DNA of 64,000 nt from Branchiostoma floridae. Its lineage: Eukaryota > Chordata > Leptocardii > Amphioxiformes > Branchiostomatidae. The stretch is from assembly GCF_000003815.2 (NCBI RefSeq), contig NC_049997.1, positions 12,080,459-12,144,458 on the forward strand, written 5' to 3'. The notes under the pieces were generated by a model. It saw only the letters and a program-made list of their open reading frames with translations, did no database searches and was not told the DNA's origin. A program made the position numbers and the translations under genes. Positions 18,427-45,631 of the stretch are shown piece by piece; positions within the stretch are counted from its first letter, which is position 1; every line of letters begins with the position of its first letter.

Positions 18427-20121
18427 CACAGGGATCATCATGGTAGAATTCTGAAAAAAACGGGAATAATTTGCCAGTGGAGTCAGACAGCGGGAAGGTT
18501 ACATTGCCCCTCCAGTGCAGCCAGTCAAACCCTATGGCGGCCAAACTCCTCCCGGTGACCCCCCATGCAGACCCTCTAGTGTGTGTGTGTATGTGTGTTT
18601 GTGGTGCCTTGTAAGAGGTGTGGTTTGAGAGTGTTTCTTTCATATTAGACAAGTGTGCATGAAAATTATGGCTTTGAAAAGTGCGTTGAATCAGAAGAGT
18701 ACAATAAGTGCTGTTTATTCTATATAAGGCATATTTTCTGATAGTAAGCTGGCTTCTGACCGCTGTCAAGATCTGACTCAAGACATAACATCAAAACAGA
18801 ATCCCAACAACTATCAGGAAACTGTGCATAGGCTTGCACAGCATCTAGAAATGACCTACTAAAATGACATCCTTCAGTGACCTATGTTGACCGGTTTTGT
18901 TACCTCTAAAAACATAATGAGCATCTTCTATTATTTAACGACCTCCGACATGCAAAGGTGTCATTAAATACAACTCACCTGGTCACTATGGTAACAACTC
19001 CCACTGCATGCTGGGTGATATAATGCGCTAAAACCTGATCGGTCAGACAGCCAATGGAGAACGAAGAATACCTCTCCTCAGCCAATCAGTAGTGAGGAAC
19101 CGGAAAAACTACTGCACAAGTGCCCTCTGACCTGAAAGTGAAAAGTAAAAGTGATCAGCTGACGTAAATAACCCCCTTAACATGCCTGATTAGGCCATCC
19201 TTAAGTTAAAGAAAGGACAAACTGATGATTATCTGTCTTAGAGAAGAACGGACCCTTAAGGCTAATTTTTGTGAGACATTCCAATCCTTGTTGCATCAAC
19301 AAAAGTCCTATTTGTTGAAAACCATTCAGTAACCAGAGGTTCCGACCTTCGATCGATAAATCAACTGGTGCAAGACTGATAGAAATATAGCAACGAGAAA
19401 AATTATAGAATGTTTGATATTTCATCCTTTTATCTGACAAAAGTCTCCCTAAAATCCTTGAAATCCCACTGCAATCCATATAAGCTTGCCAACTTATTGA
19501 AACAACAATGAACCATTGGAACAGCTAAAAGGAAAATGTGATCGTAAATATTTTGACATTGTATGTAACCACTTTTCGAGGCTTGTACAACAATGCAAAA
19601 GTCACACTTAAGGCTTTCGATATTCTAACCATGGACAAGAAGACAAGAATCCCTAATCTGTGTTTGTTGTGCAACTCTTAAGTATTTAGCCTGGGGGTTA
19701 TTCTCACAGGTGGGACCCTCAAGTGAAAGTGGGGATGTGGGTTTGAGACACCACGAATCTTACCAATCAATCATTTGGTGGATTTTTGCTATGTCTTTAC
19801 TGAAATCAAGAGGCGTCTTTGATAATTACACCTTACATACGTGTAGTCTATATTTTGTCTGTGTATAAATGTTCTTTACCATGAACACTTTGTATAGAAC
19901 TGTAAGCGGGCTGGCAAATATATCACATCTGAACATTTAACATAAGCTCAACATTTTGGAATCACAGTAACAAAAAATGAAATACGCTCTATGTAGATTG
20001 CTGATGTCTATGAAGCAGATGTTTATAATGTAACCGCCTACAATAGACTAATAGCAAGCTTTGTCCCACAGACTGGTTGGACAGGGTCCTTGTCCCCTAG
20101 TGACTTTTTCATATCGGTCGG
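18427..20121. other. Intergenic sequence upstream of LC8 gene A
   Basis: No exon could be supported. Only short frames without splice signals or recognisable similarity are present. Confidence 0.35.
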
Positions 20122-20217
20122 ACTGACATATGCAAATGAGGCACAACCAGGCGCGTCAGTCTGTGACAACTGTCATTCTGCGAGTGGAGACTTGACTTTG
20201 TTGGTAGCTGCCTTTAG
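20122..20217 (+). promoter_or_regulatory. LC8 gene A: octamer promoter and non-coding exon 1
   Basis: TGACATATGCAAATGAGGCA contains the octamer ATGCAAAT at 20130-20137. It is followed 80 bp later by GTAGCTGCCTTTAG and donor GTGAGTG (exon end 20217). The same block, with the same octamer-to-donor distance, stands before gene B (24612-24699) and in shorter form before gene C (32369-32452). No TATA box is visible. The transcription start lies somewhere inside the conserved 80 bp and cannot be fixed from sequence alone. Confidence 0.55.
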
Positions 20218-21276
20218 GTGAGTGAACTTCTTCTGTTTGTTAACAATACAGTTTATAGCTATATTTTCTGCAAAGCATTTTTTAGTAAATACAAACACAA
20301 CTCTTTTGAGCTCCTGACTACAAGTACAAAAATGTATTGATGGCAAGGATGAATGCATGACCATGATATTAAATTCTGTCAGATGTTTATAACAAATCAC
20401 CTTGTTGTTGTTCAACATTGATTGAAATTCACATGACGCTTTCAACATCCAATGAAGGAGCTAAGCCAAAAGCTGCTTGCAGAGTGACGATTTCGTGGTA
20501 GAGAGGTCACCACGAAAACCACAAACATGAAACCACTGCCAATATTTCAAGATGCGTGTTTATAGCTAAAAAAAACGTGTCATTACGCTCTGTGTTGAGC
20601 TAAAGGCTTACCGGAATGAAGACGTTGTAAATACTAACTAAGGAAATTGTTTTGTAACCTTTCTCGTGACTGAAAAAAATGGTGTCGTCAAACACAGGTT
20701 AAGTGGGGTTGAACACGTACAGCAAAGAATGTAAAGGGGCGTGACCCATCTGACATTACATCTGTTTGTGCTACATAGCTAGACATGATGATAACATGAA
20801 TCCCATATCACGCTGTCTATAACCTGTTTCACTTTCTTCTTTCTTCTTACATCGTACCATCCACAACGCCCCGATTCAAGCCAAACCCCACCATATGCAT
20901 AGTACGGTTTTGCGGTGGCATCCCATTTGATTTACCCCCCCATACTGTTGCCTTTCTAATATTCTTCTGTAACGACAAGCATGTGCAGCAAAACCAAGGC
21001 TCTCTCCAACATCCATTCCTCTGTCCCAAAACAGCATTTTGCTGCAAAAATATTTTCACCATTTTGTCCCCCTTAATAGCAGAAAGAAATCGAAACTTGA
21101 TGACATTTTCGTTAAACCATAATGCCGACAGTGCAAACAAAATGTCTTCAAAATCAAAATGACGCCATTTGAAATCTGCCCCCCAAAATGCATAAAATAG
21201 CATTTCTTACGGTAAAAAAGTTTAAAATTTTGCCCCCTGACCTTACAATCACTTGCCTCTTTGGCACTTGACATGG

Positions 21277-21367
21277 TAGCCTGGGTGCCATCCTACTTCT
21301 ACAGGGGCTCCTTGCACTTGCTGCGAGTGCAAGGAGCCTCAGTGGAAATAGGAAGGCACCCAGGCTA
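21277..21367. mobile_element. 91-bp hairpin MITE
   Basis: The arms TAGCCTGGGTGCCATCCTAC and its inverse (ending AGGAAGGCACCCAGGCTA) surround a nearly perfect inner palindrome, GGCTCCTTGCACT / AGTGCAAGGAGCC. It lies in intron 1 of LC8 gene A, about 130 bp before the leader exon. Its ends resemble those of the element at 61363-61645 (CTGGGTACCATCC). Confidence 0.75.
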
Positions 21368-21494
21368 TAGACAATTGGACCTTTGCTCTATGAAACTGAA
21401 AGGACAGAGGAAAACAGAGAGCTGTAGAGAGTCTAATGTCTGCAGCTGCAAAGATCCTCCCTACTAACGCGGGCACCATGGCTTCTCTTTGCAG

Positions 21495-21775
21495 TCCCCG
21501 GTGTCGACCTCGGCCTGACCGCAATCCTCCAAACAACATGGCGGCTGTTAAGCAAGCTGTTAAGGATTTGTTCCAATCTGACGACAGGTAAATATCATGG
21601 CTGATCAAGAAACCCCTCCCGTAGAAGCCCCCCCTGCCCCGGCAGAGGACCCTCCTGCGGACCCCCCTGCGGAAGAAAAGCCTGCTGAGGAGAAACCCCC
21701 CGAGAAGAAACCTCCTCCTGCTGACAAGGGGTCGAAGGGTCCTCTAGATTATATAGCAGGCCTGTTTAAGGACGA
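21495..21775 (+). CDS. Gene A leader exon with two in-phase donors
   Basis: The exon starts after TTTGCAG (21494). First ATG at 21538 encodes MAAVKQAVKDLFQSDD up to donor AG|GTAAAT at 21587. If that donor is not used the frame stops at TAA (21589-21591). A second ATG at 21597 opens 59 codons rich in Pro, Glu and Ala (APPAPAEDPPADPPAEEKPA), ending [12 protein letters not shown] at donor GA|GTAAGT (21775). Both donors leave phase 2 and join the same core exon. The short form therefore uses the inner donor. The long form uses the outer donor, with the first frame acting as an upstream ORF. Confidence 0.7.
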
Positions 21776-23040
21776 GTAAGTGGTTTATGATTTTTAGTGC
21801 ACTTGTCACTCTGTGTGGTTGGAGCTGCATTTACCAAAGGTATGTCTTCCAAAAATAATTTCATCAGGTTAGTAGAACATAGGATATTGGAGGATTCTTT
21901 TACACAACCAATAAGATCTCACCTGCTTCTTGTTGAAGAGGTTCATCAGTCACCTGCTATGTTTCGACGACTATCTGACAGCTTCGAGAAACAGCAAGAA
22001 GCAGCACTTCAGTCAGAAGTTCTGAGGAAGATGTCTGATAGGCAACAAAATGTACATTGTCGTAAGATTTAACTGGTTGTAAAAGAAAACACCAATGTCC
22101 TAAAGGTATATTGCCAACTGACTTTGTAGCATGGTACAAGTAGATTATTATACACTAGGATGGTATATGTTGGGCTAGTTGCATGATACTAGAAAGCTGC
22201 CTTCAATGCTTTTATATGTACAGCCGTTTATGTGCATGTGAGTGGATATGTTAAACTTTGTGTCACGTATCAGCTCTTGTTTCTTTTTCTTACAGCGAGG
22301 CAAATGCAGGAGATGTCAAAGTCAACATCAAACAATGTGAGATGCCGGATGACATGAAGGACCATGCCGTCGAGACAGCGAAACCTCTCGTAGCTGTAAG
22401 AATGAAAACTTTTGTGCATACATTTGTTAAGCACTACTTTCCTCTTTCTAATACCCTGGTGTAAAAAAACGGTACAGAAGAAGCCATTTAATTGCACACC
22501 CCATTTGCCAGCATATTTCGTGCAATTATCCAGATGGTGCAACAAAGCGAAGTTGTCCAGCTAGACGGCACCACCAAGGAATTTTGGGATTCTGTGCAAT
22601 TAACAGAAGTGTTAGGTTATCCGTCGTGCAATTAACAGGCTTCTACTGTACCTAATTTTGGTTGGGGAGGTATAAGGCTGAGTGAAACTAGAGGGATATT
22701 GGGCTCCACCTTCCAATACTGTGCCATAGAAGCAGTGAATAACAGGTCACAGCCCCTACAGCCTCAAAAAGGCTATGGGACTGTTTCAAGCACTATGGCA
22801 AATTTTTTCTAACCTTTGAACCATAGCCTAGGTCACTGACCTTGAGTAACTTTTCCAAAACAGGAGAAGAAGCCTCACAAGGACATCGCGTCTGCTCTGA
22901 AGAAAGAGTTTGACTCCAAGTATGAGCCGACGTTCATCTGTATCGTGGGCACGGACTTCGGATCCTCCATCACCCACACCAAGGACTGCTTCATCTACAT
23001 GTACATGAACAAAACTGCCATCATGCTTTTCAAAGTGTAG
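21538..23040 (+). CDS. LC8/DYNLL-type dynein light chain, gene A
   Basis: Predicted small dimeric hub protein of the LC8 family, which binds short linear motifs in dynein intermediate chains and other partners. Exons: leader 21538-21587 (short) or 21597-21775 (long), core exon 22296-22395, last exon 22864-23040 with stop TAG. All joins are phase-consistent, giving 108 or 151 residues; canonical LC8 has 89. The core reads [16 protein letters not shown], then [20 protein letters not shown], then [15 protein letters not shown] and [14 protein letters not shown]. It keeps the family signature Lys of KDIA, the FGS..TH groove segment and the FIY.Y strand. It ends at FKV, so the C-terminal Ser-Gly of canonical LC8 is absent. 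Tandem paralogues B and C follow on the same strand. It is clearly LC8-like, but which paralogue group it belongs to (cytoplasmic or axonemal) cannot be told by eye. Confidence 0.88.
22475..22648. mobile_element. Pogo-like MITE, 174 bp, in intron of gene A
   Basis: The ends are CAGAAGAAGCCATTTAATTG and AATTAACAGGCTTCTACTG (inverse), flanked by TA (22473-22474, 22649-22650). Same family as 17808 and 42878. Confidence 0.85.
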
Positions 23041-23747
23041 AGGTCAAAGTACAGAGGTCAAACTAGCTATAGGACCTGTAGATGGTTCCTGACTTCTTAA
23101 GTATATTATGAAGATAAATAATCTACTTTTTTTCTGACTTCTAAAAGAATTTATTCTTCAAAAGGTGCTTACAAATAGTTTTGTAGCTGCTCAGTTGGTT
23201 ACACTTCCATGTTCCGATACCCCTTTATTCTAACCTTAACATAAGGGTGTCGGAATATAGGGATGTCGGAACATAGGAGTGTTGATCAAAGAGGTGTTGG
23301 ACTATAGGGCTGTTGGACCATAGAGCTGTCCTAATAAAGATGAAGAAAGGTGGATCCACGTAATATGAAAAAAAAATAGACCTATGTGTCCAAACCTGAG
23401 TGGCTTTTGAGTCTTGTTTTGAGGGGAGCTACTATGTGATTATCGTAGAAGATGACAAAATTCAACTGCCTTACTCCTGTAACAGTTTTAGAGTGAAAAG
23501 GCCACTTCAGCAGGGTTGAAAGAAATTGCCAGTATCGAAATGTGCCTTATCATTACAATCTACGTGTTCTTTAGAGAGCTTCAGTTAGTACATTCATAGA
23601 GGCATACAATGAACTCTACATTGTGACTACTATGCAATTAACTATCTGGCTAGTATAGTGTCTTGTGGGTTATTACAATGTACTTAATTGTTGAATACCT
23701 ATACGTGTATGCTATTATATGCGGTGCATATTGCGGGGCAATCACTG

Positions 23748-23753
23748 AATAAA
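23748..23753 (+). terminator. Possible poly(A) signal AATAAA of gene A
   Basis: A canonical AATAAA about 0.7 kb after the stop codon, followed by a T-rich downstream stretch (TTGTCTTATTTCTGT). Variant A-rich hexamers closer to the stop could also serve. Confidence 0.35.
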
Positions 23754-24570
23754 CTTTTGGAAGAACACTTCATTGTCTTATTTCTGTAGCATGTATAATG
23801 CATTTATTTACTAACTGAAGTAACTGTTGTAGAAACATAATGTACAATATAATAATACATGTAGCAGCCTTTTAAGCTTTAGTCTGCTTCCAGTGGTTAT
23901 GAAATCATACAACGTCAAGTAAATTGCCAATCAGCCACATGTGGGAAACATATGACGTTGTCAGCACTCTACTGACTGAGGGAGCTTCAGGCATAATAGC
24001 CTTAGGTGTGAAACCTCTGTAGTCATTATAAAAGAGCATAAGGTACACAAAAAGAAGTAGACTCAGTGGTACAGTGTGCTTTCCTAAAAAAGTGATCCAA
24101 GGCGAAACCTCACTGAACTTACCTTTTTAACTAGGCTCAAGTTAATTAAAGTGTTTTTAAAAAGTGTTCTTAACTGCATAATGCCTTTTATCTTATGGCT
24201 TTGCACAAGAGTTTCAGGTGGGAATTTGAAGTAAAGTGAAGGGTTCAAATAGTCTACGCTAGCTAAGGAATCTTGAAAATCAATAAAAAATCGAAACATA
24301 CGGTCACAATCTTTGGTTTGCATCTTATTTCTTCTTCTTTACTTCATTGCAATCTTGCATTTTTGAGTTCCAATTATTTAAGAGACAAGCACAATTTTTG
24401 GTTGATTTCCCCCAAAACCATAGATTACAAATTGTTTGGTACCAGTACAAGTCTTGTAACTCTAATGCAAAGGAAGCCCTTTTTGGAGCAGATAATCAAT
24501 GAGTATAAAACAGATGCTTTCATAACCAGGTGGTCGTTTTGCAGACTAAGGTGGTCACTGTAGTTCGCTT
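23754..24570. other. Intergenic A-B; includes a segment duplicated upstream of gene C
   Basis: No gene. A 68-bp block at 24457-24524 (AGATAATCAATGAGTATAAA within it) recurs at 31966-32033. This shows that the tandem gene duplication carried upstream sequence with it. Confidence 0.6.
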
Positions 24571-24699
24571 GGGTTGACATATGCAAATTATTCTTTCAAA
24601 TGGGCTGACATATGCAAATGAGGCACAACAAGGGGCTTCAGTTCCTGACCACTGTCATTTTGCAAGCAGAGTCTTCCACTAGCCAGTAGCTGCCTGTAG
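24571..24699 (+). promoter_or_regulatory. LC8 gene B: double octamer promoter and non-coding exon 1
   Basis: Two octamers ATGCAAAT, at 24581-24588 and 24612-24619, each follow TGACAT. The second lies exactly 80 bp before the donor TGTAG|GTGAGTG (exon end 24699), matching gene A. The block TTCGCTTGGGTTGACATATG around the first octamer is identical upstream of gene C. Confidence 0.55.
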
Positions 24700-25555
24700 G
24701 TGAGTGAATTTCTTCTATTTGTTGACTCCACACAATTTTCTTACAAAACATACTGTGGAGCATATTGTTCAAAACAAAATGATATTTTCCTTTAAGTTAG
24801 TTTGCAATGCTGTCTATTCTTTAAAAAAAGTGCTTACCCTAACTGGTTTAGACAACTGTATAACCATATGTTATTTTAACGGTGGTTTCGTTGCACATTT
24901 ACTAAAATTCACATGATTTAGCATCAAATTGGAAGATATTGCAAATGCAATCAAGGCAATTCAAGAGGAAAAATTTAAGATACTTCTTTCTGAAACCTTT
25001 TTTGTTACCAGAAAACTGGTGCCTTCAAACAGGTTAAACGAGGTTGTATATCCATAGCACAAAAAGGGGGCGTGACCCACCTGTAATCAAGCCTGTTCAC
25101 AATAGTTAGTCCTGATAATAGGAGGAAATCTACTGGTGATCCTATAACACACTCCTTTCTAATGCAACAAAACAATGTTAGAGATTTCGGGAAAAGTCTT
25201 CGAATAGAACTGGTACTTTTCACCACTTGTCTTGTAAGACAACAGAACCATTATCGTCAGCCCAATTAAGTGTAATTAGTCATTCCAAGAAAGCACTCCT
25301 TACGCTACTAACTTAATATAAGAGGTACTGCAAACTTCCAATTGTCTTTGAGATTCCAAACCAATCTACAATTAACATTCAATCACTTTAGGTTAGTACA
25401 GTAGATAAACAAGTGGGTGAGGGAATATGAATGAGTTGCTTATCCTCAGTAAGGGTAGTATTAACAACTGCACTTCTGTATTAACTTTGTGTCATTTATC
25501 ACAGAATCACTACTATTCACCCATGTGCATATAACACCCAACATGTTTCTAATCT
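24700..25555. other. Intron 1 of gene B (5' part)
   Basis: No coding sequence is supported here. Confidence 0.4.
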
Positions 25556-25779
25556 TAGTACAATGCTAAACTTTCTTCTAACACAAAGTACACACGGATC
25601 AAATTTTCAACTACCACTGTCGCTCTCTTCAGGATCAATACTGATGACCAATCACTTCTGTCAGAACGTAAACTTGCAAAGCGATTGATCATCAGTATTG
25701 ATCCTGAAGAAGACGACAGTGTCGCTGAAAATTTGATCCATGTGTACTTTTGTGTTGAAAGAAAACTTCCATTGTACTA
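25556..25779. mobile_element. Fold-back MITE, 224 bp
   Basis: The ends TAGTACAATG and CATTGTACTA are inverse, and the inversion continues inward through GGATCAAATTTTC and TTCAGGATCAATACTGATGA, so almost the whole element can form a hairpin. A relative with the same ends and GGATCAAATTTTCAA blocks lies at 46955-47135. Lies in intron 1 of gene B. Confidence 0.8.
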
Positions 25780-25876
25780 TGATTACTATCAACACAGATG
25801 AGCTTCCATGATAATGTTTCCAATCTGTTCATTCCTAATCACCCTACTAACCATGGCCCACTGCTTCTCTTTGTAG

Positions 25877-26140
25877 TGTCAACCTCGGCCAGACCACAAT
25901 CCTCCAACAACATGGATGCAATAAAGGAATTTTTACAATCTGACGACAGGTAAATATCATGGCTGATGCAGCGACCCCTGCCCCCCCTGCGGAAGAGAAC
26001 CCCCCTCAGCCTACGACCTGCGAACCCCCTAAGGAGCCCCCTCAGCCTACAACCTGTGAACCCCCTAAACCCCCTCCGGCTGAGAAGGGGTCCAAGGGGC
26101 CACTAGATTATATCGCAGGGCTGTTAAAGGATGATGAAGC
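25877..26140 (+). CDS. Gene B leader exon with two in-phase donors
   Basis: Same layout as gene A: acceptor TTTGTAG, ATG at 25912, inner donor AG|GTAAAT at 25949, TAA at 25951-25953, then ATG at 25959. The long leader has a repeated Pro-rich unit ([20 protein letters not shown]) and ends [15 protein letters not shown] at outer donor GC|GTAAGT (26140). The string GACGACAGGTAAATATCATG, spanning inner donor, stop and second ATG, is identical in A and B. The two long leaders differ in sequence but both give 151-residue proteins. Confidence 0.7.
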
Positions 26141-29100
26141 GTAAGTAGTTAATGATTGTTGCAGAATTTCTCACTCTGTGTACCTGGAGCTACATAACAG
26201 AAGGTATGTGTCCTGCTAACTAACTTTGTTGCATGATAGATATACCAGTAAGATGAAAACTCTCGTGCAAAAGACAGAGGTAGCATCTGATATGGTTACT
26301 GAAGATAGTTGTCTTCCCATTACTTTATGTATTTGCAAGCATCTACAATCTATATAACAGTATAGCCAGTATATCTATCCTTTAGCTTAACTTTGACTTT
26401 GACTTTATTGACGATGAGACAAGTCATTACAAGGGTCTGCCTAGGCAGCTTTGGGCTGGTAGGGCAGAACCTACAAAAATGCGGACGAACGTACAAAGAA
26501 TTCGTCATAAGAAACACACCAGCTTCGCAGGCATGCGGCACGGCAAAAGTTGGTTAATTACACTGAATGACCTGTCACACCTACAAGAAACCTTAAAGTT
26601 TGTACATAGTCGTCTTGATGCAAGCATTGTTTAAGCACTGTTTAAGCTATCTGGTGAGAATGCCCATACAGAACTTGCTGGCAACAGGTTCTACTCTATG
26701 ATGGTTCTAGCATTGCAACATTTACAATTTACCTAGCCATGTATACGTAGGGCAACTTGTTTTTGGAACATCTTGTTCTGTGTCTTGTCCATGCACATTG
26801 CAAAAAGAAACCAATAAGACAAGAAAAGATAATGTTGTTTAGCTAAACTACAATTTTCAATTATTGGTCAACACTATACATGTAGTTATCTATTCGGAGT
26901 TGAGTAAGGGAGCTTAGAACATCAATGAATTACACAAGGTGCATTCTGCATGTTGTTTTATTCGCTTACTGGGAAGGCCCTGAGAACTGTTTTATTCTGC
27001 AAAAGAGGTAAGTAATGTCAATTGTCTTAAAAGTCAAACAGCTGTCTGCAACAAGTCCACATGTTGAGGTAAGATTACTAAGAATGAATGCTTACTACTA
27101 TAATGTTTTTTAAAGAAAAGCTATGTATGCATGAACAATACCACTTGTCCAAGTAGTAATTACTATTAAATTAGTAAGCTATAATTGCAAAGCGCTATCA
27201 AAACTGGATTTAACCATCATTCACCTGATTGTTGTAAAAAAAACTTACTGGAAACATTTCAATCCCATGTTTCATTATTGACATATCACAAAAACTTAAA
27301 AACATTTTTCATCAACATGCCTGACCTGAACAACATCCCACAACGTCCTACCCTCGCAAGACAGGGAACAACAATGCTAATTCGGATGGAGAGAGAGAGT
27401 GTGCACAAATTTCTGTCATTGTCCAATATCCAGACTGATGTTTGAAAGTGGTTTACTCCAATTTCCATTACGCCCATCAAAGTTGATGAGGTGATCTTAA
27501 AAGTTTTTCTATCAAAACTAAATAATCAACTAGAAAGGCCGACATTTGCTTGAGAGCAAATACAGCATATTTCAGCCATCTCCCTCCTCATGCAACAATA
27601 GACTGTTCCAAAATCACCCATGTGCAAAAATGGAACACTTCTGCTTAAAATGACTTCTAACTACTAATCACACTTATGAGCAAAAATGAATCTTACAAAC
27701 CCCCTTCAAGAATGGACTCTTCTAGTGCACCCCATGTAGAAAGGTAAAATAGACGACTCCAAAAACACTTCCGCTAAGAAATGGAATTTTGAATCATCAG
27801 CCGTCCAAAACCATATTTGAAAAAAAAGCCCTCTGTGCAAGAATCGACTCTTCCTGTCATACCCCTGTGTAAAGTGGAGCGATCCAAAAATACAGCAGCT
27901 AAAATAGGACATTGACATAATCACCAAAGTCCACAAAATGAATTTAAAAAAATACCCCCTTCGTCGAAGAATGGAATCTCCCAGAACACCCTGTTTAAAA
28001 TTGCACAATAGACAAGTCCAGAAATACTCACAGTACATGGCCATTTGTATAATAAGCAACCCAGTCCAAAACTGAATTTTAAAAAAGTCCCCCGTGCATG
28101 AATGGACTCTTCTAGATGACACCAGGCTTGCTGATTGGCTGCCGAATCCTCCTCATGTGCAGTCTTCAGGTGGGGGTCAACTTCCATTCAACAAATGGAA
28201 TTCGGAATCATCACCCATGTCCAAAACTGAATTTTTAAAAAATCCCCCCTATGTGCAAAAATGGACTGTCCCAGTAGTAGTCTTATGTCAAGTGGTTCAG
28301 TGCAAAAAAACTTCCGCTAAAAAAAACATTGGCATTATCACCAAAGTCTAAAAGTAAATTTTAAAAAACACCCCCTGCCCAACAATGGACTCTTCCAGCA
28401 AAATGAGCTCGCTCATTGGCTGGTCATTAATTGGATTTACCTTGTCCCCCCAACCACCTGGATGTCTATGGACTAGGTAGGTAGGTACACTCTAGATAAT
28501 TGGATCTACCTGGCACACCTGTGGCCCTGACACACCAGAATGACCTAGAGGTCGTTGACCTCGGCACTCCAGACCTTACATATCCAAAACTCTCCCACAA
28601 AAACCTCCTTAAGGAGCCATTTTGAAGTGATTTATACCAAATATTATACATGGGTCCTTTGAATAAGTATCTAGGGAACCTCTGTCCCAAATTTCAGGTC
28701 ATTTGGATGTAATACCATGGTACAGGGGGCCAAATTATACAGTGTTGGTCCAAAAGTTGCAATAAAACCTCAATAAAATCATTTAAGGAGCAGATATGAA
28801 AAAAATGAAAAAAACACATTTGGGTATTGGCCCACTCTACCCTTGGGCCAAATTTCAAGTCATTTGGTCCAGGAACGGCGGAGATGAATCGCATTGAAAG
28901 TTTGACAGGAGAAAGAAAGAAAGAAAGAAACATTACGAATACAATATATTTCACCATACCTATGGTATGGCTGAAATATAAATAACGGCTGGCTAGAGAC
29001 CTGGCCTGGATACAATATTGTTGCTATTTATGACAAGAACCAACACCTGTTTCTTTCTCTGCAGCGAGGACAAAGGAGACGTTAAGATCAACGTCAAACA

Positions 29101-30197
29101 GTGTGAGATGCCGGACGACATGAAGGAACACGCCACCAACACAGCAACTCCTCTTGTAAAGGTAAGAAGATATCGTAGTGTACAGTCATATAAATGTTTA
29201 TACCCCTATTTATACATCGCTATGTTCTGACAAGTGACAACACAATGTTCTAAAGCAGGTCCACCTATAGACCTACTAGGACTTTAAATAGTGTAACTGT
29301 ATGTCTGTTATACATTTTATCTGACCTTGAACTCTTCTTCCCTAATGACCTCAATGAAAAGTGGCCTGTGGCCCAATTTGAGCTTCTCATGGACAAACAA
29401 AGCTTCAAACCCTAATCTCAACCCCTGACCAGAACTTAGGGTTGTCCTAGATGTAGACATTCAAAATTGTTTTTTCCATGTACAGTAAACCTGCTCAAGC
29501 GACCACCTCTTCTTAGCGACCACTTTCATTACGACCACTTTTTCTCAGTCCCGAAAATTTTCCTCATTGACGTAAACATTCACAACGACCACCTGGCCAA
29601 CACGACTGCGACCGCCAAAAATTGAGACCAAATCCCTGCCCATAACAACCACGTCATTTTCAAATCTTGAGGTGTCATCGATTTTCAATGATAACTAGCG
29701 CGATTTTGTGCCGAATTCGGCCAGTTTGCGTCAGATTTTGACTACCATTACGATGTTATGTTCAAAATAAAGATGGGGGCGGATGCACGTGTCTGTGCTT
29801 AAACACAACGGAAACCATTTAAACTATGCATCGGGCATGTTGTGAGTCAATACTCTTCTAACCGACCACCTGACCAAATTGACCGCTTTTGACAAGTCCC
29901 CCAGGTAGTTGTATTGGACAGGTTTTACTGTTAGTAGTTAACTTAAAGTTTTAAACATGAGGATGTCTAATTTGTAGCAACCTACCATAGGTCACTGACC
30001 TTGAGTAACTTTCCCAACAGGAGAAGAAGCCTCACAAGGACATCGCGTCTGCTCTGAAGAAAGAGTTTGACTCCAAGTACGAGCCGACATTCATCTGTAT
30101 CGTGGGCACGGACTTCGGATCCTCCATCACCCACACCAAGGACTGCTTCATCTACATGTACCTCAACAAAACCGCCATTATGCTCTTCAAGGTGTAG
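25912..30197 (+). CDS. LC8/DYNLL-type dynein light chain, gene B
   Basis: Second tandem LC8-family paralogue. Exons: leader 25912-25949 (short, [12 protein letters not shown]) or 25959-26140 (long), core exon 29065-29161, last exon 30021-30197 with stop TAG. All junctions are phase-consistent, giving 103 or 151 residues. The core reads [16 protein letters not shown] and then [20 protein letters not shown]. The last exon is nearly identical to that of gene A in protein and DNA, pointing to recent duplication or gene conversion, while introns differ greatly in length (2.9 kb versus 0.5 kb before the core exon). The groove residues FGS..TH are kept and the protein ends FKV without the Ser-Gly tail. 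Family assignment is firm; the cellular complex is not known. Confidence 0.87.
26389..26510 (-). mobile_element. 3' end fragment of a non-LTR retrotransposon
   Basis: On the minus strand it ends with AATAAAGTCAAAGTCAAAG, a simple-repeat tail, preceded by CAGCCCAAAGCTGCCTAGGC. The same sequence in plus orientation closes a longer copy at about 38950-39391. About 120 bp remain, strongly 5'-truncated. Lies in the gene B intron. Confidence 0.7.
27590..28400. repeat. Degenerate tandem repeat, unit about 130 bp
   Basis: Variants of GAATGGACTCTTCTAG recur near 27710, 27841, 27969, 28100, 28260 and 28384, mostly 120-135 bp apart. They are accompanied by AAAACTGAATTTTAAAAAA and CCCCCTGTGC-type blocks. 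It fills much of the gene B intron before the core exon. Frames through it are by-products. Confidence 0.65.
28840..28980 (+). repeat. Interspersed repeat 3' end with (GAAA)n tract
   Basis: A run of GAAA units at about 28913-28931 is followed by CACCATACCTATGGTATGGC, a short palindrome (CCATACCTATGGTATGG). It looks like the terminus of a retroelement. The family is not identified from sequence alone. Confidence 0.4.
29483..29930. mobile_element. MITE-like element with CAGTAAA ends
   Basis: The left end is CAGTAAACCTGCTCAAGCGA and the right end GTATTGGACAGGTTTTACTG (inverse), with GACCACCT words near both ends. Decayed material with the same words lies near 6760-6830, 12000-12160, 32250-32330 and 50870-50940. 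It is in the last intron of gene B. Confidence 0.55.
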
Positions 30198-30230
30198 AGG
30201 TCAAAGTTTAGAGGTCATACCAAGACCTGC

Positions 30231-30267
30231 AATAAAAGCTTACAATGTCATCTTGTAGCTTAATAAA
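30231..30267 (+). terminator. Poly(A) signals of gene B
   Basis: AATAAA at 30231-30236 and again at 30262-30267, 34 and 65 bp after the stop codon, give a very short 3' UTR. Confidence 0.5.
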
Positions 30268-31398
30268 AGAGGAAAAGAAATAAAAGCGATGTTCTTTCAA
30301 TGACTTTTCATAACGTAATCAGAAGCAAGGAGGTTTTTTTTCTAAATAATCTTTACTTTTAGTTCTGAAAATCATTTTGAATGTCACAGTTTATTTAATC
30401 TCTTAGCAGTTGTGATGAGGTGATCTTCGGTGAAAGTCTGGTAAAAGAATTTCATTCTTACACTTTAAGGTGCTTTTTTCTTCCTAATGCTGCGTTTTGT
30501 AGGTGCTCAGTAAGGTTTTAAAAGGTGAAAAAAGACAGACCTATGCAATTCCCTTTTTTTTCACACTTAGCATTGTCTTTTGCTAATGGATGGTTATGGT
30601 TAAGGTAGTGTCATAGAATTGAAGAAAGTCCAACAACTTAAACCATGCTTTTATGGTACTTCTGCAAAGTAACCTATAACCACCCTCTAGCCAATCATTA
30701 TAGGAAGTGTGACAAAATATGGTGAATGCAATGCTGAAAAGATAGAACATAGCACCAAATTTGTAACTTACGTGAAGTACTTAAACAGCCTTACTACACA
30801 ATCCTGTGAATGTTTTTGTTCTTTAAAAACCAACATAGATACATGTATACACAACAGACGTAACTACAAGCAAGTAATTGGCTAATACAGTATACATTTT
30901 ATTCAAGCACTCGATCTATAACTACACAAGGATACTACAATGTAATATTATTACATGCTATTTGGTGGGTTATTGAAGTGTGATGATTACAATAAACATT
31001 TGAAACATTAAAAACCAGAGACTCCTTAATCTTATTTCTGTGGTATTTCATACATTACAGACATTTCACAAAATTTAACATAATTGTGTAGTGCAATTAC
31101 ATAGCCTTGCTTTCTAGCACATGGGGACTCCACATGTATGGAATAGGTTCAAGCCTTAAATCTGCCAGGGTTGTGGGAAGGAACCAAGACTTGTATACGG
31201 GAATCTGAGCTACATCTATATTATTTATTATTAGGTTATGATAGTATTAGAACCAAAAACATGATTTAATATTTTGGCCAAGTCAACATGAAATCATAAA
31301 ATGTGTCATGTACATCTTCAATCAGCTTCATGTTAAACATATTTTTTATTGCATTGTCAGTGCTTTCTCCAGGTCTGGATTTTTTCTGTCCTCTTATA
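30268..31398. other. Intergenic B-C, non-coding
   Basis: No exon or repeat boundary could be supported. Confidence 0.35.
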
Positions 31399-32344: not shown

Positions 32345-32452
32345 GATGTAGTTCGCTTGGGTTGACATATGCAAATTAACACATCACTACGCCGAGGTTC
32401 CGTCACTTGTGCACTGAGTCTGTTGGATATAGCAGGTAGCTGTCTGTAAAAG
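32345..32452 (+). promoter_or_regulatory. LC8 gene C: octamer promoter and non-coding exon 1
   Basis: GTTGACATATGCAAATTAAC has the octamer at 32369-32376, 76 bp before donor AAAAG|GTGAGTT (exon end 32452). The exon end CAGGTAGCTGTCTGTAAAAG resembles GTAGCTGCCTTTAG of gene A. Confidence 0.5.
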
Positions 32453-33673
32453 GTGAGTTTTAACCAACAGTTTTTTTCGACACTCGATGTAAACAGTTAT
32501 AAACCTTCTCTACTGACAGGTGAGACTGGTAAAAATAAGAGTTGTGTCAAAATTTAAAGGATGCTGCATGTGTTAAAAGCCAGATCATCTTTTAGATTTT
32601 CAAAATCAGATGCTCAATCACATACTGATCTATAGAGAGATCATATACTGACCTACATAAAGATACGATATTCTTTCATTTACAGTTTTGAGGCCGAAAC
32701 GAAGAAGAGATTTTTGTTTGTAAATGCAGACATGCATAGGGGCACGTACCCTGCCCAGCTGAAAAGGGGGCGTTACCCATTGTTTTTATGTCTACATAAC
32801 TGCTAGCAACAATTTAAAATTGTCTTTGATGAAAATTACCATGTACATACACATGCGGTCTACACCATCACATAAAATAGAATTGACAAATATCAGGTAA
32901 AATTTATTGTGTATATATGGATTGCAAAGTATAATGTCACATTTTTTCAGCTGACCGGGCAATTTTATGCTCACTCAATCATACAAACGATGTCTGTACA
33001 CCTGCAAGGTTCTTTTAGACTACTTAATTTTAAAATCTCAAGTATCGCATAATTTAAGAATTTCCCAGCATTGCTCTAATCTATATCAATTTTAGCTTCC
33101 ATAGTTGTTTGTCCTACAATATGAAAACACTGCACTAAGTCTGGAAATAAGCAAGTAACATTCAAAGCATTGTTACCTTTTTAAAAGTGAAAAATGATTG
33201 TGTTGATATTGTACTGCTAGTATGCACAATGCATTCAACATGTATGGGACAAATTTAAACCTACTAGGGTAACATCAAGCTCAAATAGTGGAGTTTGCAA
33301 AGACTGAAATTGTTGTCAAATGCAAAATCACTGTAAGTTGTGTTTGTGGCAGTAACTAAAATATTACATTCTTTTGACGAAATACAGTTATAATAAACAG
33401 TTTCACACAACAGAGTGTGCTATATATACTTGGGAAGCTTTTAAGATGCATTCTCTTTTTCATAACTTTCATCTACAAAAGTGGCAGAATGTTTCATTTT
33501 GTATTAGCTAGTGAAGCAAGGGGGAATAATTAATAAGCTACGTCAGCCATGTATGATCAACTAAATGCTTCTCTATATCTGGTGTATTTAACTGTAACTA
33601 TTTGACATCCATATTGAAGCTGAGTGTTTTGTCTTTACAGTGTGGACTGTAGACGTACCGTCTTTCCAACAAA

Positions 33674-36600
33674 ATGGGGAAAATCAGTGATTTCTTCTTT
33701 GATTCAGACGACAAGTAAGTGCTTCTTGGATAAATACAGAGAGTACAGAGAGGTCTATGGCAAGAAAAATCACATACAGCACACTGTATATGTTCAGTAT
33801 CACCCAGCCCAACTGTGACACCCGATAGAACACACGTTTCAATGTGAAAAGGCCAGAAGTTACATATGTATGAAAGATGACTCCTTGAGCAAAAACATCG
33901 TAACAACATTAGCATCTAAACTCTTGAGATGGATTCAACCCTTAAACTGCCAAACCCGGATATATCCAGCACACATACACATGTCCTGTGTGCCGCACCT
34001 GGATATATCCGGGATAGCGTATTCCTCCGAAGTAGCAACTTTGCATGGGCGTAGCGCCCGAAACCCGGAAGTTAGGGACTTCGGCCTTGTTCGGGGGTTC
34101 TTTTTGGAGGTCAGCAGCCAACCCTGGCACCGATAGCATTTTATAGTGCTGAAACTCTGGCAGTTTAAGGGTTTAACATCCTCTTCCTATTGAAGTGACC
34201 GCTATCGTTGTGTTGATCATTGGATCAAGTGGAGGCCACCAGTGCAAGCCTTGGTGGACCCTATGGAAGCCCTGTGACATAACTAATATTCATGCACCAT
34301 AGTCATAAGTTAATAAAAGCCCCAATCTTAATAATACCACACTTCTCCCTCCATCACACTGTAGCCGTGGAGTGTCAAACTCAAATTTCACAAACCGTTC
34401 AACAAATTTCACAGACAGAAAACAAGGTAAATTTAGGTAAATTATGTGACTATCTTTACAAACTCTGGACACTAGTTTATAGAAAGAAGTGGATCTTAGA
34501 GGCAAAATTACTCAGATATTATGACTTCTAAATCGCACTCTAATGTGTAACATATTTCAATAATTATTATAAAAATACAGGGGTCACAGATGTCAAATTT
34601 TTGTCACTCATGGATTTTTGTAAAGTTCAAGGCCTTGTTTAAGATAGGGCGTTCCATCCCCCACCTAATATCACCTTAGATGAACCTTCTAGAGCTCCAA
34701 ACTGTTTAACGATACACAAACCTATAAACCCCTCCTGTGCCAGAAGTCAATGATAAAATTCAATGATGTCTATTATGTGGTTCTAATCGACTTTGAAACA
34801 GGACAATTAAAGTTACATAAATCAACTGACATGTTGACCAGACAAGGACAGAAACTTGGCTAAAACCCAAAGTCATTGTTAATCTCCTGCAGATGTTGTA
34901 GCTGCCGAATTTGTCAACGCCTTCAAGTCAAGGCTGGACAGTCACTGGAGGGGGTGGAGTACACGCCTAACCAATGTTCTAGCCTGCCTGAAATTTTTTC
35001 CCATCCCCTGGATTTTGAACAGAAATGCTATCGAGCACTTGAGACTTCCACACAACGATCATGTATAGAGGGGTCCGGGAAAATTTTGAAATCTAAGACC
35101 CTTTGAAACGCTATTTCCTGCATTTTGAGGGGCAAATTCTGCTGGTAGAGTAGACTCAGCTGAGTTTAATGGCATCTGTGCTAAATTTCTGGAGATCTTT
35201 ACAAAATTCATTTGTCAAATATCTTAACATGTCAATCTTTGTCCGTCCCCAGCTGCAAAATTCCATCAAAGGACCCTGCACCTAACCCAACATTAACTCT
35301 CATTGTAGACTCTCTTTACAACTCTGGACACTAGTTTTCAGAAGCGGATCTTATAGGCAAAATTACTGCCTCTTATGTGATGACATTGATATCAGAGATA
35401 TGTATCATATAAGATGATTTGAAAAGCTAAAAACAAGACCTTGCATTCTTTTTTAATTTTTGTCAACAAAATAAGGATGAATAAAAAAAAATGTTTTGAG
35501 CCACTCATTTTGAGTGACCACCAACTGATGGGAAAATGATAAATGCAGCCATCTCTGTTGTCTTGACTAGGAATCTTGTGGTCTATAACTATATTATGTA
35601 TGAGGTGAGGAAAATTGCAATACATGTAGAGACATCATGTTAGACATAACATTTTGCTATGGAGTGGAAAATGGCTGACCCCTCCCCCTTTTGCCCTACA
35701 TTGTCTAAAAATGCCTTGGGTGACCGCAGCATGACAATAACGCGACCAAAGACCAGCCCAGCAGCTTTGGTGAGCATGTTTTAAGGTGGCCGGGGCAGCT
35801 CTAGCTTCTCTCTCAGGAAAATAATGCCGACAGTGCCCGCTCACGAAACCCCTGTGACGCCCCATGGAAAATCCAGTTTCTTCCCATCCCCCATAGAATG
35901 GCCTACCGCTTTATTCAACCCCTTCAAAAGGTAAATGGCATTAAAGTTTCTTCTAGATTTGTTGGCACAACTTAAGACTAACACTACCAATGAATTGATA
36001 ACTCTAACTTACTTTGGGGAGCCCTGAAACAGCACAATATGAACATGAGAATTGATATTAACTTATGCAAGAAATAGTTTAAAATAACTCATTTCTGATC
36101 ATAATTTTGTCAGGTTTTTTATCACACAGTTCTGGAAAAGGCAAAAAATTCCTTACAGTGGACAGATGGCCAACAAGAATATGTTAATTACCCCAATACA
36201 AATTACCTTTTTTTACACATCTTTCACAAATGTCCTCTTCATATCTAACAGCTACTGATGTATGGTTGAACATAGCAAGGAGGAAAAGATATTCTATGAA
36301 AGGAAAAATAGCCAGAAAGACTCATCTTGATTCTTTGCAGCACATAAAGAAACTTAAGGTGATTTGATAAAGCAATGGCCTGGAGGTTGTTTACCTACTA
36401 CCTTGTTGTTGTCTAAAAGAAATATGCAAATATCTCTTAGAATGTGCTTCATTTCCAATGATAAGTCGTTTCTGCTAAGTGCTACTAGAACAAATTTTCA
36501 AGTTTTTGCTCTTTTCCACAGTGTGCGCAATCAGAAGTTTGGCCTCCACTCAAAATGGGTTTAAACCACCCTGTCACCTGTGAAATATCAGGTTAAGTCA

Positions 36601-39600
36601 AGGAAAGGGAATGGGCTGTAAAGAATGTTCTGGACTTAAATGTCAAAACAATTTAACAATGAACAAAAACATAGAAGATTGTCAGAATGTCAGTATAAAA
36701 CCATATTAATGATATACGCCCAACGCCTGAAGACCCAAGGAAGCTCAGCCCTTGGAACAAGGGTTATGTGGAATGCATCAAAATTGAAGTTATTTTCTTT
36801 GTACATCATACGCAACCGAGTTAAAATAATTCAATGCAAAATGTACCAGAAGTTGAGAAAATCTGGCGTCCCAAAACAAAAAATTGTGTAAGAACATCAG
36901 TGCCAACGTCCGGATTCGATATTCAAACTTTTGATGGCAGTGCAATGATTGTCTTAAAGTTTAAAACTTTAAGATTACCCTAAAAATCAATATTTTTTTT
37001 TGCTGCATATCTTATTATTTTAACTGCAGTATGACCCTACATGTACGTCATTGTCTATATAACGTAGAACAAGCTCCAAAGAAAATGCTGACAACAATGT
37101 CTATGTTTCATGCTAATCAATTGAAAAATGATTAAGCCATAACTTTACGTCACAACGTTCTTTTGTCTGCAAAGACTCAAAAGTCACTCTCGATTACTTT
37201 CTCCTTATATCATACTTACTTTGTGATTTCTATCGACAACTCAAAGAGGAAGAAAGAATGATGATAACCACATTGCATGACTGCCTAAATCTTTTATTGA
37301 CATCTAATGTCTGCCATTGTTTATGAGATGCAATGCTCCCTAGTTTCCAAGGGGCAAGCGCAAACATACGACCCTCTGCATTTTGTTGTAAAATTCTCAC
37401 TGGAATTGCTCAACGGGGGACTTGGAGAATGACTGAAAGGAATTATGGTTACGATAACTGGCATTCTCTCAATTCTTCCTGGGGGAATTACATGTACGTT
37501 TCGCCTTGGTAAGTTGACGGTTGATTCTGTAGTTTTTGTGAGGTTAGACTTATGAATTCCTACAGACTAAGATTTCCAATATTCTGTTCCACTTGACAGA
37601 TAGGTCAAAACTGCATGACATGTTTATAATGGCAATGGGAAACAGCATTTTGCTGGGATCCAAGAGTTCAAAATAACAGGAAACAACAATCTTAAGCTTA
37701 GTGAATGGCTCTTGATGATGACTACTTCATCCATAGTAGAATGACACATTTTAAAAAGTCTGATTACCAAATCTTCTACATTACAATGTATATTCAAGGA
37801 CGTCCTTGGTACATCTAATTTTTGTGTGTGGATAGAATTGAAGAAGAGTATCTGGAACCAAGGAGGTTTAAAAAGGACTCCTTGCTGGAACATAAATTCA
37901 GCTTCTATAGCATATCTATTAGCCCTTCATTGAATGAAAAAAATAGGCAAACATTAAGACAGTGTTCATGGGAATTTAATCTAACTTCTGTTCGCAAATC
38001 TCAGTTTAGGAGCCGCCTTCAACAACATAGCAATTTTCTGGCTTTTGTTGTTCAAAAAGCTGTGAAATCTGCATTGTTCGAGACAATGAAGCCTCCAACC
38101 CCAGGCCAATTTTCAACTTATACTAATTGAATAACCATCTGAGGCAGGACTGGTGTTTGTTATTCCTTAAAAATGAAGACACCAACGTCAGTGAACGTAT
38201 CATGATGATTGTGCAATCAGTAGAACAACAAGTACTCGGTTACTCTGTTTGTATATCTTTTTCATATTTATATCTAATTTCTTAGACTGCATCCCTTCTT
38301 GTTTACCAATGTGAAAGTGTGAAACAGTGAAATAATTTTAGCCTGCCCACCCCTGGGGTAAGTGAAAGTGGTACAACCTGTTTTTGAGGTGTCCTTTTAT
38401 TAGGGGTCAGTGCTGTTGTTTAGCATTCAATCAGTCAGGTGTTTTAACATTGGTTAGTATAGGCTGCCAGGCATTTTCAAATATTTTCTTAGATTGCCAA
38501 GGTCATTGTTGTTGGAAATACATATATCAGGAGCCTATTTTTTGTGCAACATTCTGCACAGTCTGAAACATACGCCTAAGAATCATAACTTTTATTTCAA
38601 GCTATCCAGTGATTAACAGTCAGGAGATACACAGGGAAAAATCTATCCTGTTCTCCTGTTGTACAACAAGCTTAAGCCATCATGTTGTTTTGAAGTGGGC
38701 TTTAACTTAGCATGATTTATATGTAAAAGTAAAATGGTAACACTTCCTTTGCAGTCATTTGATACATGTATGTTCAATCGATATTATTTCAAACACAATA
38801 TGTTGGCAGCTATGAATTATGAATGAAACAGGCTTCTGTGTAACCACAATAACATGCGATATGCATATTACATTTATTTTGGACGATGAATTCAATATCT
38901 TCATGACATCTTCTGACACCAGCTAGCACAAGTGCTGCTCTCTATGTAAGAAGTGGCAGTGATTTTGTTTTGATTGATATTGCATAATTTCATCATGTTT
39001 CTAAAACCAGAAGTTAATCAGTGTAGTACTAACAAATTTGCTAATCCTACACTTCACTCAATCACACTCACTCTGTTGAGCTCGCTCAGAATGCTACGAC
39101 TACTCTTCTAAAAGCTTTAGAAAGAAAAGTACATGACTTGTACACTGACCTTCCACCTACTCCGATCTTTTAAGTATGCTTTTGCTATATGGTATAGATC
39201 AATTTCTTCCGTAGTTGCATGACATTTTATAGTTATTGATTATTTTATTGCATTATATTGTATTGTTTCCTGTTATGAATTCCTTGTATGTTCGTCCGCA
39301 TTTTTGTAGGTTCTGCCGCTACCAGCCCAAAGCTGCCTAGGCAGACCCTTGTAATGACTTGTCTCATCGTCAATAAAGTCAAAGTCAAAGAAACCGTATC
39401 AACACTCACTCACCTAAGTTTGTTGTCAGCTGTCCCTTGTCTTGTGAGGGTTAGACGTGCTTTCACTTCAAACCTCAAAGTTTGATGGAAGATCTCCAGC
39501 TACTTCTGTCCTGTGGATGGGATAGTAAAAGGTCTTTTAACACCAACGAAATAATTGTACAAGTTTCTGATTACATTTGAAAACCTTACAATAAGCAATG

Positions 39601-41094
39601 AACAATGAGTATTTGTGCAAAATATACTTCCACATCCGATGTTGAACATCCAATGTTACAGAACTTTTCCCTAATCAAACTCAAGGTTCTTGATTTTTGC
39701 CATCAGGTTATTAAATTTGATTACCTCCAGGGTTGAACAAGTTTTCTACTGTCTTGTCCTATCGGGCAAGCACATAAAAAATGTACTTGCCCGAACCAAT
39801 TTTTCACTTGCCCCAAATTCAAATGTCACTGTTACTTACTAAGTATATGCATTTTCACTTCCAGCAATGGAATTCTCTGTAGACAATTGCTTGATGTCAT
39901 GACTGTAAAAAGTAACAAGTATATCAAAATTGCACTAAAATCAATGGAAAAATCTTACTTGCCCGATCGGACAAGTGGGGTAGGACATGCACTTGCCCGA
40001 ACAGCACTTGCACTTGCCCTGGACAATAGGGCTAGTGGACTTGTTTATCCCTGACCTCTTTGACATTCCAGTTAACACAGCAGGAGGTTCGAAACCTGTC
40101 ACAACTGTAGAAAAAAAGTTATTTTGGGAAGCAAACAATGTATAATCATACAAATGTTAATGATATGTGATGTTCATTGAACAATACTTATTATGGTTTG
40201 ATGTAATTAGGAACTGTACAGTTATCTTAGTGTCATTGGTGTCACAGGATCTTTAAAAGATACATTAGAACATTTTTTCCTTTTGTTTTCCATGTAGTGA
40301 CCCAAAGGATGTGAAGGAGGATGTGAAGCAATGCGAGATGCCAGATGACATGAAACAACATGCCATCGACACAGCAAAACCTCTGGTCGCAGTAAGTAAA
40401 TAAATTCGTCTCAAGAACAATTTACCCACAACTCTTAAATCATCACATCTTAAGTTGTCCTGTTTCAAAGTTTCAGACAACAAGCTTGCATTTTCAAAGA
40501 AAGAAGGGACCAAACCTGTTGTGTCTAAATATAATTGACAGAATACGTCTACTCTTAAAATGTACAGATGAGCATTTCATGGTAAAACTTATCAATGACT
40601 TTCAAACAATAGAATTCAACTGGCAAATTAATGACATTGGGATTTCAAAATTACGATAAAAGTAACAACTTTGGCAAATGCTAACTGGGAAATATTGTTG
40701 GTTCATGTACATTTTGTACATGACTCACTGATACAATGAATATTTAGAGGTCATAGTTCATTAACCTTAAATGACCCATACCATCAGGTAAAGATTTCAC
40801 ACATGTTCATATGAAAATTGAATATTTTTTCTGTTTGAAAAACTATCATGCCAAATTCTCAAATCGAACTTTACCTGTTACCATGGTCCATTGACCTTGA
40901 GTCACCTTTCTTTACAGAAGAAGAAGCCTCACAAGGAGGTCGCCTCGACCTTGAAGAAGGAGTTTGACGAGAAGTACGAGGCGACATGGATCTGTATCGC
41001 TGGTACGGACTACGGTTCGTCCATCACTCACGCCAAGGAGTGCTTCATCTACTTCTACCTGAACAAAACCGCCATCATGCTCTTCAAGGCTTAG
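33674..41094 (+). CDS. LC8/DYNLL-type dynein light chain, gene C
   Basis: Third tandem LC8-family paralogue. Exons: leader 33674-33714 (MGKISDFFFDSDD, acceptor TTTACAG before 33641, donor AA|GTAAGT), core exon 40298-40391, last exon 40918-41094 with stop TAG. It joins in frame to 103 residues. Only the short type of leader is present; the sequence after the donor has no Pro-rich frame. The core reads [16 protein letters not shown], then HKEVASTLKKEFDEKYEATW, then GTDYGSSITHAKECF and [14 protein letters not shown]. It has the Trp typical of LC8 (PTWHC in canonical LC8) where A and B have Phe. It is more diverged from A and B than they are from each other, so the C lineage probably split first. 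Its first coding intron is 6.6 kb and contains several transposons. Confidence 0.85.
33938..34172. mobile_element. piggyBac-like MITE, 235 bp
   Basis: The ends are ACCCTTAAACTGCCA and TGGCAGTTTAAGGGT (inverse). The right flank is TTAA and the left flank TTCA, a one-base decay of a TTAA target. CCC-type ends plus TTAA suggest piggyBac; this is inference. Confidence 0.6.
34173..38949. other. Gene C intron, mostly unassigned
   Basis: Apart from an RT fossil at 34892-34990 I found no supportable exon. A 102-codon plus-strand frame at 37822-38127 has no splice context or recognisable motifs and is not called. The words AATGCCGACAGTGC at about 35825 and again near 21120 hint at another dispersed repeat. 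Confidence 0.35.
34892..34990 (+). pseudogene. Reverse transcriptase C-terminal fossil (LINE remnant)
   Basis: The frame reads DVVAAEFVNAFKSRLDSHW. It resembles the end of the polymerase protein of CR1/L2/jockey-type LINEs, where a 'V..FK.RLD.W' pattern is common. Only about 100 bp are recognisable and no catalytic motif remains. Confidence 0.4.
38950..39391 (+). mobile_element. 3' end of a non-LTR retrotransposon with (CAAAGT)-type tail
   Basis: It ends CTCATCGTCAATAAAGTCAA followed by AGTCAAAG. The last 120 bp match the minus-strand fragment at 26389-26510. The 5' limit is uncertain. No coding capacity is left. Confidence 0.6.
39728..40053. mobile_element. hAT-like MITE, copy 2, 5-bp target duplication
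   Basis: Same ends as copy 1 (CAGGGTTGAACAAG / CTTGTTTATCCCTG), flanked by ACCTC on both sides (39723-39727, 40054-40058). It is about 35 bp longer than copy 1 near the left end, and otherwise nearly identical. Lies in the gene C intron about 250 bp before the core exon. Confidence 0.85.
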
Positions 41095-44853: not shown

Positions 44854-45631
44854 CTACACCTTGATTTCCAAATGTTGGTGTTGTCTTATCTCTTCCATAA
44901 TTTCTTCCTCTTTGGGTTCAGTGAGACCACTTCTAAACAAGTGGTGCACCGACTCTACCCTGACTTCTGTAAACGATAACGTACGACTGCGCCCTTCGTC
45001 TTCCGGTTCTTCCTTAATGGCATTCGACTTGTCCCATTTGGTGATGAAGTTCTCAAGAACGAGAGCGATGAAGCAGTTCACGTAGACCACCACGGAGACG
45101 AGCCACCACACGATGAAGAAAAGCTGTGCCCAGCCCGTGCTTAACGCATCCTTGTACGCGAACAGAAACACCATCCAGTTATTGACAACCATCACGTCCC
45201 ACAACACGACTAACGCTGAGGCAAAATCGTTAAAGTTGTTGGCCCAATAGTTCAACTGCTGGTAGCTCCCGCACGTGAGATTCGGGGTGCGGAAGGTCTC
45301 GTAGTCTGTCACACCGCTGAATATCTCGATCCCGAGGATCGCGAAGATGTAGTAGATCACGACGAGGATTCCCGCGAAGGCGCGCATGTTCTTGATGAGG
45401 TCGAGCAGCGTGCTCAGCACGAGGGACATGGTTTTGAAGAGCGAGATAACGCGTAGGAGACGGAACATGATGAGGATGTTGGTGATGCGGATGAGGTCCC
45501 ACAGTTCGATCACGGTCTCCACTTTGTCCTTTCGGTCAAGTTCAGAGAAAGGAGACCCGTACTCTACCAGCGTCATAATCTCCACTATCACGAGACCGAA
45601 GGTCACCAACGCATCAAAGATGTATGTTTTC
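44854..45631 (-). CDS. TPCN2: TPCN2 last exon: domain II S3-S6 and C-terminus
   Basis: It encodes most of the second voltage-sensor-like domain and pore. The S4 segment reads NILIMFRLLRVI. The residue three before the first Arg is Ile, as in voltage-insensitive human TPC2 (Ile551), where voltage-gated TPC1 has Arg. The pore has the YWANNFNDFA helix and VVNNW filter. The C-terminus ends in a Glu-rich tail (EPKEEEIMEEIRQH). Confidence 0.92.

Follow-up and report, generated by a model that had tools for sequence, protein, structure and literature searches.

LC8 (DYNLL, dynein light chain type 1; PF01221) is a highly conserved hub protein with typically almost nothing ahead of its core domain. 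Here we describe a 64-kb stretch of the Branchiostoma floridae genome (contig NC_049997.1, positions 12,080,459 to 12,144,458 of the forward strand; hereafter the window) that carries three LC8-like genes, A, B and C, in tandem on the plus strand. Our comparisons, made at the level of sequence, lead us to favour, with modest confidence, a reading of A and B as tandem LC8-like genes with an alternative-donor N-terminal switch, in which the long mRNA would carry the short leader as an upstream open reading frame (uORF). Each of the closest described systems shares part of this layout. As in N-terminal isoforms generated by alternative 5' splice sites, one exon with two donors leads to the same acceptor in the same phase; unlike the usual alternative donors, however, the longer version of A and B closes the first frame and opens a second start in another, so that the leader would be swapped rather than lengthened. 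Dual-coding transcripts with a uORF, such as TP53BP1 (PMC10193022, whose title names reinitiation or promoter switching), similarly place a short frame near the main frame, whereas in A and B splicing could make the main protein begin with the uORF product. Like the inner donors of A and B, dual-specific splice sites have an AGGT core with passable scores in both the donor and the acceptor role; PMC10809524 documents large numbers of such sites used both ways in human data, each weaker in either role, whereas acceptor use in A and B is something that the sequence would permit. The titles and opening abstracts of the literature on amphioxus or Branchiostoma dynein light chain, LC8 N-terminal extension and DYNLL1 isoforms, and of the matches listed for amphioxus alternative splicing, uORFs combined with donors and dual-specificity splice sites, do not describe this arrangement.

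The likeness to LC8 lies in the core domain. A Pfam scan of three of the five products (A short, A long and C) returned PF01221 at E values of 6.1e-30, 1.9e-29 and 3.4e-29 (101.5-103.9 bits against a gathering cut-off of 29.1), and the last exon of gene B exceeded the same cut-off in the genome search (79.8 bits). Gene A aligned along ~85 residues to solved LC8 chains, for example 9y6s and 9e5c, the search returning 42 distinct PDB sequences with an E value no higher than 0.001. In the same genome, at least six PF01221 matches were found among 11 candidates scored: A, B and C, canonical LC8 genes on C11 and C175, and one gene on C13 that we take to be DNAL4-like. The two canonical genes share 84% DNA identity over 1086 nt, show an unbroken match over the whole domain with a methionine just ahead, and are each 45% identical to the gene A core over 88 residues. 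Compared with them, A, B and C have a divergent core that an intron interrupts, with a leader of 12 to 60 residues ahead of the split codon. When the leader exon DNA of gene A was compared with its own genome, the matches were itself and gene B only (2/2 candidates), and no convincing leader match was seen around the three other PF01221 loci (lowest E value 0.42 with the Pro-rich frame and 0.59 with the short leader).

The leader exon of both A and B contains a first start codon (ATG1), an inner donor (CAG/GTAAAT), a TAA overlapping that donor, a second start codon (ATG2) and an outer donor, every element named in the initial annotation being present (Table 1). The stop of the ATG1 frame precedes ATG2 by 5 nt in both genes, and the outer donor retains 188 (A) or 191 (B) bases more than the inner one. 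As had been claimed, the four donors of A and B leave phase 2 and feed the same core exon, giving two donors with one downstream acceptor in compatible phase; with the leader donor of gene C included, 5/5 are in phase 2. The lengths previously assigned to the products also hold, with all four models open to the stop: 108 (A) and 103 (B) residues for the short forms, 151 for both long ones. Gene C, whose spliced product of 103 residues is likewise open, has the short form only, as had been proposed, its first coding intron (33715-40297) yielding no match to the Pro-rich frame by tblastn at E 10 or better. Because gene C has this form alone, the short form is probably ancestral. No ATG lies ahead of ATG1 in the assumed spliced 5' untranslated region (UTR) of A or B, and ATG1 and ATG2 all carry A at -3 and G at +4. 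An outer-donor mRNA that includes ATG1 would contain a start and a stop ahead of the main start, that is, a uORF of 17 (A) or 13 (B) codons.

The evidence that carries our reading concerns the second frame. From ATG2 to the outer donor, the extension spans 179 nt in A and 182 nt in B, and the remaining two frames contain stops in both genes. Openness by itself is weak evidence, because the Pro-rich frame stayed open in 6251 of 20000 runs of a neutral simulation. In a 54-codon alignment of A and B, differences numbered 10, 9 and 26 at codon positions 1, 2 and 3 (26/45 at the third, p 6.5e-4), with dN 0.25 and dS 0.75 for the whole frame. Over the last 21 codons, a tail picked after the alignment had been seen, they numbered 0, 0 and 10 (p 1.7e-5; dN 0.044, dS 0.81), leaving 19/21 residues unchanged, an outcome matched in 7 of 20000 runs that placed 10 random changes. 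A substitution-only neutral simulation kept 19/21 residues in 2/20000 runs and reached the 26/45 third-position share in 1/20000. This leader end, common to the long forms of A and B, closes in (F/L)KD. These comparisons indicate selection on the long Pro-rich leader at the protein level; given the third-position bias, the dN/dS values, and the random-placement and neutral-simulation results, it is most likely translated.

The junction between the two frames is also conserved at the nucleotide level. A 20-mer reported as identical in both genes proved to be part of an identical run of 32 nt across the inner donor, the TAA and ATG2, the longest exact match between the stretches compared (20000-24000 and 24400-30300) apart from the homogenised last exon. 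Even when up to 3 mismatches are tolerated, the window contains only two copies of the 21-mer GACGACAGGTAAATATCATGG, those of A and B. Since about half of the nearby synonymous sites differ between the genes while these 32 nt stay identical, the run suggests nucleotide-level constraint. A and B share 95.5% identity in their last coding exons, where dS is 0.22, compared with 0.44 to 0.91 in other parts; these exons were likely homogenised by gene conversion. By a donor matrix of which the order alone is usable, the inner donor reaches 9.2, a value that 19 of 3965 window GTs equal or better; the sole leader donor of gene C also scores 9.2, the outer donors score 6.9 (A) and 5.8 (B), and a third donor further downstream, AAG/GTATGT, scores 9.6. 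On the exon side the inner donors follow the consensus, and their +5 position is poor (no +5 G); the outer donors read GTAAGT after poor exon bases (no -1 G). These complementary weaknesses might resemble those of competing donors.

Under the alternative-donor reading, the inner donor would join the ATG1 leader (MAAVKQAVKDLFQSDD in A; 12 residues in B) to the core, yielding a protein like that of gene C. With the outer donor, the ATG1 frame would end as the uORF, and ATG2 would open a Pro/Glu/Lys-rich leader on the same core. Both donors would be in use, and ATG2 would be reached by leaky scanning or by immediate reinitiation after the uORF stop, or else through a different 5' end that avoids ATG1. 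The long leader may equip both subunits of an LC8 dimer with a flexible, Pro-rich arm that recruits other partners. We consider a translated uORF on the long mRNA and the use of both donors plausible. The earlier proposal that donor choice swaps leaders is retained insofar as two leaders are possible and the long one is under protein-level selection, and abandoned in two respects. First, the special role assigned to GGTAA as both donor and uORF stop dissolves, because every phase-2 GTAA donor yields xxG TAA, as all five leader donors do, making the TAA over the inner donor a by-product. Second, the similar hydrophobic-DD ends of the two leaders do not exceed chance, only one of six comparisons being reached by <5% of shuffles. 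An origin of the leader ends from a common exon duplication was likewise not supported: protein shuffles matched the real score in 70, 707, 1240, 1263, 1489 and 1780 of 2000 for the six pairs, and DNA shuffles reached it in 1247 (A) and 75 (B) of 5000. The two leader ends of gene B alone are suggestive of likeness, as one of several looks. An RNA hairpin at the switch was sought, and nothing beyond chance was found (z -0.09 in A, 0.25 in B).

Several observations weigh against the switch. The short frame of A and B rests on weaker, indirect evidence than the Pro-rich frame: it opens in a strong start context at the earliest ATG of the assumed 5' UTR, runs to a good donor in the correct phase and has a counterpart in the leader of gene C, but between A and B it keeps 6/12 residues, as do 12680 of 20000 random placements, with dN 0.28 and dS 0.44 over 12 codons, and against gene C the dN/dS values, from few sites, are 0.61/1.73 (A) and 0.40/1.42 (B). 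Without its tail, the Pro-rich frame loses significance (16/35 differences at position 3, p 0.087), so its repeat-like part is loosely constrained. The 32-nt identity might instead reflect local gene conversion, which is possible because the last exon seems to have been touched by that process. Much of the initiation at ATG2 should be prevented by a strong-context ATG1 that lies 59 (A) or 47 (B) nt upstream, and ordinary reinitiation usually takes more room than 5 nt. Finally, in the stretches listed, the outer donors rank only 4th of 35 GTs in A and 4th of 27 in B, and the third donor tops the ranking in both genes.

If this third donor were used, the Pro-rich frame would stop at the TAA of the outer donor and give a free peptide. 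Between +7 and +70 past the outer donor, A and B show 47 matches, 16 differences and 1 gap column, and at the third donor the similarity drops (next 130: 72 matches, 47 differences, 22 gap columns). A/B similarity likewise extends past other exon borders into intron sequence (72-89% ungapped). Ungapped identity is a poor measure for intron pieces, an arbitrary pair of introns reaching 79% ungapped with 60 gap columns, and the similarity beyond the outer donor may therefore be only flank conservation. A third frame, from ATG3 (21787 in A, 26152 in B) to the third donor, shows no sign of coding: its differences over 42 nt fall 5, 4 and 2 by codon position. In gene B, moreover, it would not join the core in frame.

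The difficulty of reaching ATG2 past a strong ATG1 would be solved if CAG/GTAAAT were itself dual-specific, acting as a donor for the short form and as an acceptor for the first exon, which would drop ATG1 and give a long mRNA with GTAAATATCATGG, ATG2 first and no uORF. We regard this as unlikely, though it has several points in its favour. Scored as an acceptor by a rough matrix, CAG/GT reaches 6.5 (A) and 7.3 (B), not far from the leader acceptors themselves (7.3 in A, 8.6 in B, 7.9 in C); the 32 identical nt span the site; and gene C, which lacks the long form, has AA/GT, so that its site cannot be an acceptor. The score is nevertheless weak evidence, because 194 (A) and 149 (B) of 3855 window AGs do as well or better. 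In addition, purines (GACGA) directly precede the AG, the acceptor tract would fall in coding sequence, and the difference that sets A and B apart from C amounts to a single change. An extension of this idea, which strikes us as a long shot, would give one CAG/GTAAAT three roles in each gene (donor, stop, and acceptor removing ATG1), with the third donor producing a free Pro-rich peptide of ~60 residues without the LC8 core.

Alternative promoters are a common route to N-terminus swaps, and a separate transcription start in the leader exon or intron 1 would likewise remove ATG1 and free ATG2 from the uORF. Against such promoter isoforms, the sole promoter-like element considered, TGACATATGCAAAT, lies 5' of the first exons with 0/4 copies near ATG1, and we rate them as unlikely too, if anything slightly more so than a dual-specific site. 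We give little credence to the idea that A and B use the outer donor only, the ATG1 frame being a relic that acts only as a uORF on Pro-rich LC8 genes: protein-level selection is strong on the Pro-rich frame and absent from the short frame between A and B, as it would predict, but A and B have both preserved the short frame together with its phase and donor, this frame is the counterpart of the only leader found for gene C, and the inner donor outscores the outer ones. It is very improbable that outer- or third-donor mRNAs are unproductive, yielding no long protein and reducing output through nonsense-mediated decay, since 19/21 kept residues and 10/10 changes at third positions are unexpected for a non-coding extension. 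In favour of this idea are the conserved third donor and the position of the uORF stop, which the outer junction follows after 184 (A) or 187 (B) nt, with a further junction beyond it.

Table 1. Positions in the window of the features of the three LC8-like genes (slash, splice border)
Gene	Feature	Position	Strand	Remark
A	TGACATATGCAAAT element and assumed non-coding first exon	20124-20217	+	donor TAG/GTGAGT after 20217
A	leader exon, outer-donor form	21495-21775	+	inner-donor form 21495-21587
A	short leader frame, ATG1 (21538) to inner donor CAG/GTAAAT	21538-21587	+	17-codon uORF if outer donor used
A	TAA overlapping inner donor	21589-21591	+	
A	Pro-rich leader frame, ATG2 (21597) to outer donor CGA/GTAAGT	21597-21775	+	
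A	third conserved donor AAG/GTATGT	21839-21845	+	64 nt beyond outer donor
A	core exon 1	22296-22395	+	100 nt
A	core exon 2 including stop	22864-23040	+	177 nt
A and B	32-nt identity across inner donor, TAA and ATG2	21574-21605 = 25936-25967	+	
B	two TGACATATGCAAAT elements and assumed non-coding first exon	24575-24699	+	donor after 24699
B	leader exon, outer-donor form	25877-26140	+	inner-donor form 25877-25949
B	short leader frame, ATG1 (25912) to inner donor CAG/GTAAAT	25912-25949	+	13-codon uORF if outer donor used
B	TAA overlapping inner donor	25951-25953	+	
B	Pro-rich leader frame, ATG2 (25959) to outer donor AGC/GTAAGT	25959-26140	+	
B	third conserved donor AAG/GTATGT	26203-26209	+	63 nt beyond outer donor
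B	core exon 1	29065-29161	+	97 nt
B	core exon 2 including stop	30021-30197	+	177 nt
C	leader exon, short form only; ATG 33674, donor CAA/GTAAGT	33641-33714	+	
C	core exon 1	40298-40391	+	94 nt
C	core exon 2 including stop	40918-41094	+	177 nt

Other shared elements accompany the three genes. TGACATATGCAAAT, which contains the octamer ATGCAAAT, has exactly four copies in the window (20124-20137, 24575-24588, 24606-24619 and 32363-32376; chance expectation 0.09), located 5' of the assumed first exon of every LC8-like gene, with two for B; it looks like an octamer-type promoter element common to the cluster. By eye only, gene C has a first exon like those of A and B, ending near 32450. A TGACCTTGAGT stretch lies in the intron directly 5' of the last exon in all three genes (22829-22853, 29988-30012 and ~40885-40910), within 25 nt identical between A and B. 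Self-comparison of the window revealed self-complementary inverted repeats resembling miniature inverted-repeat transposable elements at 21277-21367, 25550-25785 and 60339-60534 (identity 86%, 81% and 89%), one of them 5' of the gene A leader exon and another 5' of that of gene B. Elsewhere in the window, pieces of a two-pore channel gene occupy 44854-48427 on the minus strand, both with Ion_trans domains, the best PDB match of the 47168-48427 piece being two pore channel 2 (9.4e-89). A 1059-residue open frame on the minus strand (54571-57750), with reverse transcriptase and RNase H domains, is probably a non-LTR-type retroelement, and a 318-residue stop-to-stop frame on the plus strand (61786-62742) shows hydrophobic stretches by eye and no Pfam match at E 0.001.

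If the alternative-donor switch is true, one gene and one hub would serve two sets of partners, through the short leader in one form and the selected Pro-rich arm in the other. The same short frame would then be the N-terminus of a protein in one mRNA and a uORF in the other, with a few bases deciding between them.

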